Positions 38,858 to 45,237 of a stretch of 64,000 nt of DNA are shown piece by piece (the first letter of the stretch is position 1; the number at the start of each line of letters is the position of its first letter). The DNA comes from Bacillota bacterium. Lineage in GTDB: Bacteria > Bacillota > Sulfobacillia > JAJZYS01 > JAJZLH01. The notes under the pieces were generated by a model. The model was not told the origin of the DNA. It saw only the letters and a list, made by a program, of their open reading frames with translations, and ran no database searches. The stretch is from positions 1-64,000 of the forward strand of contig JAJZLY010000014.1 in NCBI GenBank assembly GCA_021850485.1, given 5' to 3'. Made by a program: the position numbers and the translations under genes.

Positions 38858-39004
38858 TTGCGTTCCCTCCCGCATTCGTGTGCTGAACGGACCATTCGTG
38901 ATCAACTGGCTCGATCCCGCGCCGGCTGTGGCAGATGCCCCACCGAGAGACTATGCTGAGATGTAAACTCTGGCTCGCTAGGGCAACCTGAGGAGGTAGG
39001 CGCC

Positions 39005-39472
39005 ATGGCTCAGTTGACCCTCTATCAGTTCGACACCTGACCCTATTGCGTATTGGTTCGCCGCCGGCTCGGAGAGCTCGGCCTCGCCTTCCAGGTGATC
39101 ACCATCCCCCGTCCGCGCAGTGAGCGTCAAGAGGTTCTGGCCGTGAGCGGACAGCCCACGGTACCAGTCCTGGTCACCGACGATGGCGTCTTTGCTGATG
39201 AAAACGACATCTTGGCCTATCTGGAGCGGACCTATGGCCCGGCGCCCAAACGGCCGCAGGCCAAGGCCGAGCTATGGCCAACCGACTTAGCGGCCAAGCT
39301 AGATGCCCTGGCCACACGCCTAGCCGAGAGCAGCGAAGAGCTTTTGGCCATCTCCCGCGCTGCCCAAGTTCATCAGGCCGTGGACCTCACCAACGTGTTG
39401 CAGGTCGCTGGCCAGGCGGCTGCCGATGCCGCCCGCTGGACGGCCGGACAGGCGGAGTCAGCGCGCTCCTGA
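39005..39472 (+). CDS. Glutaredoxin-like selenoprotein with U-P-Y-C redox motif (in-frame TGA)
   Basis: The frame opens with ATG 39005, preceded by AGGAGG (38991-38996) with ideal 8 nt spacing, and reads M-A-Q-L-T-L-Y-Q-F-D-T-U12-P-Y-C15. TGA at 39038-39040 falls exactly where glutaredoxin/GST-N proteins have the first Cys of CxxC; the frame then runs for 143 more codons. The C-terminal side is clearly in family: VRRRLGELGLAFQVITIPRP, cis-Pro in QPTVPVLV (Pro54) and FADENDILAYLERTYG. A bSECIS-like hairpin lies 30 nt behind the TGA. The tail (about 85-155) is helical and unfamiliar. It probably reduces disulfides, peroxides or similar substrates. A TGC-to-TGA null allele is the alternative, but reading frame, ribosome binding site and hairpin argue for selenocysteine. 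Confidence 0.87.
39063..39082 (+). promoter_or_regulatory. Bacterial SECIS-like hairpin
   Basis: Stem 39063-39070 pairs with 39074-39082 (8 bp) with one bulged T at 39078, four base pairs below a GGA triloop (39071-39073). The loop begins 31 nt after the TGA. Bacterial SECIS elements lie in the coding region about 16-37 nt behind UGA, with a small loop starting in G and, in E. coli fdhF, a bulged U in the stem, so distance and shape fit; the bulge here is on the 3' side. Confidence 0.65.
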
Positions 39473-43962: not shown

Positions 43963-45237
43963 GTGCTCAGCCTGCTCCTGTTCCTGGCGGTCGTGGTGGC
44001 CAGCGTGCTCCGGCCCTGGCGGCTTTCTCCGGGCTTATTCGCCGGCGCAGGCGCCGTGGTGGCGGTGGCCGCCGGCTTCACTGCGCTGCACAGCCTACCC
44101 ACCATCTGGTCGTTGATCTGGGACCCCACCTTGGCCTTCGTGGCCGCAATCGTCATGTCGCTGGTGCTGGATCAGATCGGTGTCTTCGCCTGGGCCGCCC
44201 GCCACGTACTTCGCTCCGCCCGCGGGCATACGGCTTTGGCGTTCGGTGGACTCTTGCTGTTGACTGCGGCAGTCAGCATGCTCTTCAACAACGACGGCGC
44301 AGCCCTGATCATGACCCCAATCGCCCTCGAGCTGGCAGCACTCTATGCACTGGGACCGGGTCCGGCCATGGCGTTGCTCCTGGCGGTCGGGTTCATGGTG
44401 GATGCTGCCTCCTTGCCGTTACCGGTCAGCAATCTGGTGAACATCCTAGCCACCGACGCTGCCCACATCAGCTTTCTAGCGTTTGCCCATATCATGATGC
44501 CGGTCGACGTGGCGGTGGTCGCTGTCAGCGTGGTGCTCTCCTGGGCGCTGCTTGGCCGTAGGCTTCCAGAGGACGTGGCGGCGCAGATCCCTGACCCGGC
44601 GGCCACCCTGCCGGACCTTACGCTGTTTCGCCGCGCCCTGCTCTTGGTGGCAGGGCTGGTGGTCGCCTACGTGGCCAGCGGCGCCCACCCCTTCCCTGTA
44701 TCCGTGCCGGCGTCCGTGGCCGCCATCTTGCTGGTCGCCATGGCCTGGCAGCGCGGCCTGCTCCGCCCCAAGGCACTCCTGGCCACCGGTCCGTGGCAGG
44801 TCGTCGTCTTCTCGGTGGGAATGTATGTGTTGGTCTTCGCCTTGGCCCAGAGCGGCTGGCTGGGCAGCCTGCAGGCCGCCCTGGCTTGGGCCAGCCGACT
44901 TCCTCCCGCTGCCGGTGTGTTCGCGGTTGGCCTCATCACCGCTACCTTAGCTGCGGTGCTGAACAACTTGCCGGCGATCATGGCGGTGATGCTCAGTCTT
45001 GGCCACTTGGCACTGTCGCATCCGGCCAGCCTATCTTTGACCGCCGCCGCGACCATCGGTGCCGACATCGGCCCCAAGGTCTCGCCCATCGGGTCTCTGG
45101 CTACGTTAATCTGGCTGCATCGACTGGAACGGCACGGGATTTCGATCAACTGGCGGACCTATGTCGGCGTAGGGGTGGTTCTCACGGTGCCGGTGCTGCT
45201 GGTGGCCCTGACCACCCTGGCGTCGATCCCAGGCTGA
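43963..45237 (+). CDS. ArsB/NhaD-type permease of the ion transporter superfamily
   Basis: A 424-residue membrane protein with about eleven hydrophobic segments. SMLFNNDGAALIMTPIALEL in the first half and AAVLNNLPAIMAVMLSLGHL plus AATIGADIGPKVSPIGSLATLIWLHRL in the second are the paired signatures of ArsB-like pumps. It could export arsenite or another anion; no arsR or arsC is next to it, so the ligand is open. The GTG at 43963 has only a weak AGGA upstream; ATT 43951 and CTG 43954 are possible. Confidence 0.85.
   Translation: MLSLLLFLAVVVASVLRPWRLSPGLFAGAGAVVAVAAGFTALHSLPTIWSLIWDPTLAFVAAIVMSLVLDQIGVFAWAARHVLRSARGHTALAFGGLLLLTAAVSMLFNNDGAALIMTPIALELAALYALGPGPAMALLLAVGFMVDAASLPLPVSNLVNILATDAAHISFLAFAHIMMPVDVAVVAVSVVLSWALLGRRLPEDVAAQIPDPAATLPDLTLFRRALLLVAGLVVAYVASGAHPFPVSVPASVAAILLVAMAWQRGLLRPKALLATGPWQVVVFSVGMYVLVFALAQSGWLGSLQAALAWASRLPPAAGVFAVGLITATLAAVLNNLPAIMAVMLSLGHLALSHPASLSLTAAATIGADIGPKVSPIGSLATLIWLHRLERHGISINWRTYVGVGVVLTVPVLLVALTTLASIPG

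Follow-up and report, generated by a model that had tools for sequence, protein, structure and literature searches.

The window analysed here, a stretch of 64,000 nucleotides taken as a whole, contains on its plus strand (39005–39472) a frame of 155 codons that runs from an ATG at 39005 to a TGA at 39470–39472 and whose sole interruption is another TGA, at codon 12 (39038–39040, +). When this internal TGA is translated as selenocysteine (Sec, U), the product is a selenoprotein of 155 aa with a UPYC motif, in which putative Sec12 is embedded in the sequence TLYQFDT-U-PYC, and with a helical C-terminal extension; at the aligned site, relatives carry a cysteine. A Shine-Dalgarno sequence, AGGAGG (38991–38996, +), lies 8 nt 5′ of the ATG, and a GGAGG also precedes the start in two relatives (G001 and G002). 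Further along the frame, TGC at 39047–39049 (+) encodes Cys15, the resolving cysteine of U-P-Y-C, and Pro54 (39164–39166, +) is the cis-proline of a TVP triplet; both residues are invariant in both family alignments. The initial annotation of this DNA had pointed to a single frame broken by TGA only, to AGGAGG ahead of its ATG and to thioredoxin-fold residues on either side of the TGA, and each of these features was found again.

An open frame is by itself no proof of a Sec gene: the 64-kb window holds 190 TGA-bridged stretches of more than 150 codons, such frames being common because the genome is rich in G+C. The case thus rests on comparison, that is, on homology that extends to either side of the TGA and on the retention of this codon in relatives. 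One has to consider, for instance, that the gene might start at the TTG at 39053, the TGA then lying in an untranslated leader. Standard ORF calling (table 11) does return this shorter ORF (39053–39472, +; 139 aa), as the initial annotation had anticipated, and thereby misses the active site; this shortened form, however, lacks the catalytic U and C as well as the first strand, the AGGAGG is placed 8 nt from the ATG at 39005, and codons 1–11 are conserved as protein across genera, with LTLY invariant, which makes a TTG start very improbable.

Relatives and the state of codon 12

We searched the contigs of 101 related genomes with an alignment query and recovered the protein at full length in two congeners, with 80% and 76% identity, and in nine further genomes, all from a second family within the order. 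The subfamily is thus present in 12 of the 154 genomes of the class, restricted to two families of one order, while a thirteenth genome (G011) has a short paralogue only; the named relatives are Bacillota metagenome bins. UPYC or CPYC is aligned in all 12 long-form proteins. Aligning cysteine homologues at residue 12, a check proposed in the initial annotation, splits these long forms into two halves: codon 12 is TGA in six of them (the source genome G000, G001, G002, G005, G008, and G010) and TGC in the other six (G006, G007, G009, G012, G013, and G014). TGA is kept in both matching congeners and in three genomes of another genus, and a third genus has TGC.

Short paralogues of 80–92 aa from the same order resemble the N-terminal domain of the long forms (about 45–58% identity) but have no helical extension and always show TGC or TGT at codon 12. 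Across long forms and short paralogues, U/C12, P13, and C15 are invariant and Y14 nearly so. A short glutaredoxin-like gene from another genome of the same class (G047, L045:1501–1671) has a TGA at the same position, in the context TPT-U-PYC, and is a candidate short Sec-glutaredoxin. A second, weak match in the source genome itself (C25:87112), interrupted by one TGA and one TAG, was taken as noise.

Both arms of the gene are under purifying selection. Within the source genus, dN/dS is 0.19–0.28 for the whole gene, lowest for codons 13–80 (0.07–0.16), and higher for the helical tail (0.27–0.39). In the congeners, the gene is flanked by the same neighbours, upstream a methionine-synthase-like gene of opposite orientation and downstream a GH1 gene, so that these loci can be considered orthologous; the neighbours in the second family differ from those in the source genus.

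These data bear directly on whether the TGA could be a true stop, as it would be if a glutaredoxin gene of the Cys type had suffered a nonsense mutation or decayed into a pseudogene, or had been misassembled. A single-base step does separate TGC from TGA, and TGC is what relatives of another genus carry. Against this stand the presence of this TGA in five further assemblies from two genera, the selection on both arms with a remaining frame that is intact in all of them, and a source genome that decodes Sec elsewhere (in selD and fdhA, see below). Relatives sharing codon and frame, together with purifying selection, exclude a lone sequencing error or pseudogene, and the sequencing error at 39038–39040 that the initial annotation had named as fatal to its reading is contradicted by independent assemblies of relatives, which carry TGA or TGC at this place. 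We thus regard a true stop as highly unlikely.

Selenium machinery and the hairpin downstream of UGA

The initial annotation had predicted that selA, selB, selD, and a tRNA-Sec would be encoded elsewhere, and all four were located in the source genome (1.61 Mb, 97.2% complete): tRNA-Sec at C2:2081–2172 (72.7 bits, over the cut-off; anticodon tca according to ARAGORN), SelB at C15:212–2038 (353 bits), SelA at C20:58236–59534 (487 bits), and SelD at C20:57266–58189 on the minus strand (348 bits), the three proteins scoring over their curated cut-offs. The selD gene (L018) itself bears a TGA, in KSG-U-GCK, followed by a hairpin, GUGGGUCC-GGA-GGACCUGC, whose loop is also GGA. An FdhA-like gene (C20:87114–88985, minus strand, L177) has a TGA before HAPS and an E. 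coli-like CGCA-GGUCU-UGCG element. The TGAs of selD and fdhA sit at their known Sec sites, and the source genome has at least two TGA-bearing selenoprotein genes besides the glutaredoxin-like one. The fdhA gene appears to be split, its N-terminal 4Fe-4S part apparently being encoded by an ORF of its own with a ferredoxin domain, at a distance of about 2.4 kb (C20:84529–84690, L180). In G010, which has the TGA form, selA is present and tRNA-Sec was not detected, probably due to the incompleteness of this 360-contig assembly.

The frame would also open if this lineage had reassigned TGA to a standard residue, Trp or Cys. The gene's final stop, however, is TGA in G000 and G002 and TAG at the same place in G001, a swap which implies that TGA still serves as a stop; moreover, the internal TGA pairs with Cys codons and not with Trp, and the full Sec-decoding set is present. 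Reassignment is, in our opinion, extremely improbable.

We then come to the RNA signal expected of a gene decoded by SelB. The published model of the bacterial SECIS element (bSECIS) has an apical loop of 3–9 nt with a G in its first two positions, a stem of 4–16 bp, 16–37 nt from UGA to loop, and an MFE of at most −7.5 kcal/mol (PMC13188914). The hairpin GCCG-GCUC-GGA-GAGC-U-CGGC at 39063–39082 (+) complies with all these constraints: it has 8 bp, a 3-nt loop (39071–39073), and an energy of −11.1 kcal/mol, with 22 nt between UGA and stem and 30 nt between UGA and loop. Both the GGA loop and the position of the hairpin had been correctly described in the initial annotation; the unpaired U that it had also listed is present (39078) but lies in the 3′ strand of the stem. 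In the fdhF element of E. coli it is the 5′ strand that carries the bulged U, and our own folding of that element puts it there too.

The core GCUC-GGN-GAGC is found in all six Sec forms and in none of the six Cys forms, in which the stem is always broken. Among Sec forms, alignment columns 27–35 and 37–41 are invariant, silent positions included, the third loop base being the only variable base between them; with a core stem that does not vary, there is no covariation to count. When compared with synonymous recodings, the local hairpin energy gives p of about 0.025 in the source genus and about 0.05 in the second Sec genus, so that the hairpin alone is moderately significant (about 0.025–0.055 per sequence), and no excess is seen in Cys forms (p 0.61–0.998). 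The fold of the 63 nt from UGA is overall unexceptional (z −0.33), and a generic best-hairpin score is not significant, being equalled by about 13–20% of synonymous recodings; the weight of the hairpin evidence thus comes from the local energy and from the contrast between Sec and Cys forms. In the Cys form of G006 (L059:2028–2093), the sequence CGGCTCGGTGAACTCGG is one stem base off the Sec-form core and is possibly a SECIS remnant left after an exchange of Sec for Cys.

The gene tree, (source genus Sec, (second genus Sec, third genus Cys)), was built excluding the distant class-level redoxins, whose inclusion produces an artefact branch of length 6.08. It agrees with the genome families, and a single clade of Sec forms is rejected (p-AU 0.009). 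The idea that Cys forms result from the loss of the Sec machinery was discarded, as most genomes of the Cys genus keep selA and tRNA-Sec. The simplest reading of these sequences would be a Sec-containing ancestor followed by one Sec-to-Cys exchange in the third genus; two Sec gains require the same number of steps, and we infer from the shared hairpin core that a single gain is to be favoured. One bacterial family would offer a clean natural Sec/Cys pair, both genera keeping their Sec machinery, which is useful for asking why thiol oxidoreductases keep or lose Sec.

Fold, mechanism, and redox partner

In Pfam profile searches, for which U12 was entered as Cys, GST_N_3 scores highest (61.6 bits). 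Glutaredoxin (PF00462) also matches, with 49.1 bits for a gathering score of 22.9 and matches in all 12 members; as both alignments begin at residues 5–6, they span codon 12. The AlphaFold2 model (pTM 0.51) shows a glutaredoxin fold over residues 1–80, a low-confidence linker (83–87), and an antiparallel two-helix hairpin made of residues 95–122 and 126–154 (39287–39466, +), with pLDDT mostly above 90 in the helices and block pLDDT of 94–97 over residues 101–140. These two long helices, about 75 extra residues, agree with the initial description of a helical C-terminal half unlike plain glutaredoxins. The best Foldseek matches are GSTs, with TM-scores of 0.42–0.50 obtained mainly through the N-domain; no GST_C family was found by Pfam search in the source protein or in the members, and the protein does not have the GST_N plus all-alpha GST_C composition of GSTs.

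The Sec/Cys pairing, the purifying selection, the complete machinery, and the Sec-linked hairpin, all read from sequence, converge on one explanation, which we hold to be very probable: SelB and tRNA-Sec would decode UGA codon 12 as Sec, under the control of the hairpin that follows after 22 nt, to give a 155-aa thiol-disulfide oxidoreductase with U-P-Y-C on a glutaredoxin/GST-N fold followed by the helical hairpin. We infer that Sec is actually inserted and that the protein is redox-active. The Sec12 selenolate would attack an oxidised substrate, which could be a disulfide, a sulfoxide or a peroxide product, and Cys15 would resolve the selenenylsulfide; the helical hairpin may serve in partner binding or dimerisation.

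As for the re-reduction of the oxidised pair, none of the eight genomes tested has the glutamate-cysteine ligase family GCS2, so that glutathione made via the GCS2 route is unlikely there, and thioredoxin reductase is present (358 bits); a bacillithiol partner was considered and is not supported, BshA giving only paralogue-level scores with none over the cut-off. As the searches gave no ligase family for glutathione synthesis, Sec12/Cys15 would most likely be recycled, as a dithiol-type reductase, by thioredoxin/thioredoxin reductase or by a non-glutathione thiol, a donor argued from missing families. The label "glutaredoxin" of the initial annotation is consequently appropriate for the fold only, as glutathione probably does not drive this protein.

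A selenoprotein whose Sec acts on a metal(loid) such as Hg, As or Te, by binding or reduction, and not on protein disulfides, should also be considered. An ArsB-type arsenical pump membrane protein is encoded in the window at 43963–45237 (+; 264 bits), with an MFS transporter as its neighbour. This pump is 4.5 kb away from the gene, and the isolate codes of the relatives' bins, which we take to denote acid-mine-drainage sites, would suit such a role. Genes on the opposite strand, however, lie in between and place ArsB outside the gene's transcription unit, the gene has other neighbours in the second family, and CxxC/UxxC with the cis-proline of TVP is the generic signature of dithiol reductases; we thus consider a metal(loid) role unlikely, and prefer the thiol-disulfide oxidoreductase.

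Comparison with known systems

Curated NCBIfam models do not recognise the protein, which falls below every one of their cut-offs, including that of the Grx3 equivalog (36.3 bits for a cut-off of 129). The UXX-star family shares a Grx-like fold and a Sec near the N terminus, but the scores are below all four cut-offs (score/cut-off in bits: NF041212, 37.1/66; NF041114, 18.4/72; NF041211, 17.3/100; NF047338, 24.4/97). Mycoredoxin, YruB-family, and NrdH redoxins are not known to require glutathione. These small CxxC redoxins align over residues 4–65, but the protein is likewise under their cut-offs (TIGR02200, 37.3/89.5; TIGR02196, 39.7/88.6; TIGR02194, 17.4/85.8). Members of the subfamily are missed by current NCBIfam models in addition to being truncated by standard gene callers. 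E. coli Grx2 and the GST superfamily also have a GST_N-like N-terminal domain followed by a helical part, but the present protein has two helices only, no GST_C, and 155 aa instead of about 215.

Whether we deal here with an undescribed subfamily restricted to one order, made of minimal GST-like oxidoreductases with Sec as the ancestral state and Cys in one genus, and relying on thioredoxin reductase or on some thiol in bacteria that lack glutathione, is to our mind an even bet. The selenoprotein interpretation of the initial annotation is supported, but its novelty is lower than was suggested, as Sec-containing glutaredoxins with UxxC are already established (PMC13188914, PMC1088965, PMC1794560) and known from the Sargasso Sea, Geobacter, Alkaliphilus, and Moorella; the known families include GST-like selenoproteins as well. 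With the Sec-glutaredoxins (PF00462, e.g., WP_010943784.1, the Sargasso Sea set, and the Grx of Clostridium oremlandii), the present protein shares Sec at the first position of UxxC, a glutaredoxin-fold domain, and a downstream bSECIS; it differs from them by the two-helix hairpin, by GST_N_3 as best Pfam match, and by genomes that, among those tested here, have no GCS2 family. The chemistry and the way of recoding are well established, and the protein represents a new subfamily within the known Sec-glutaredoxin kind.
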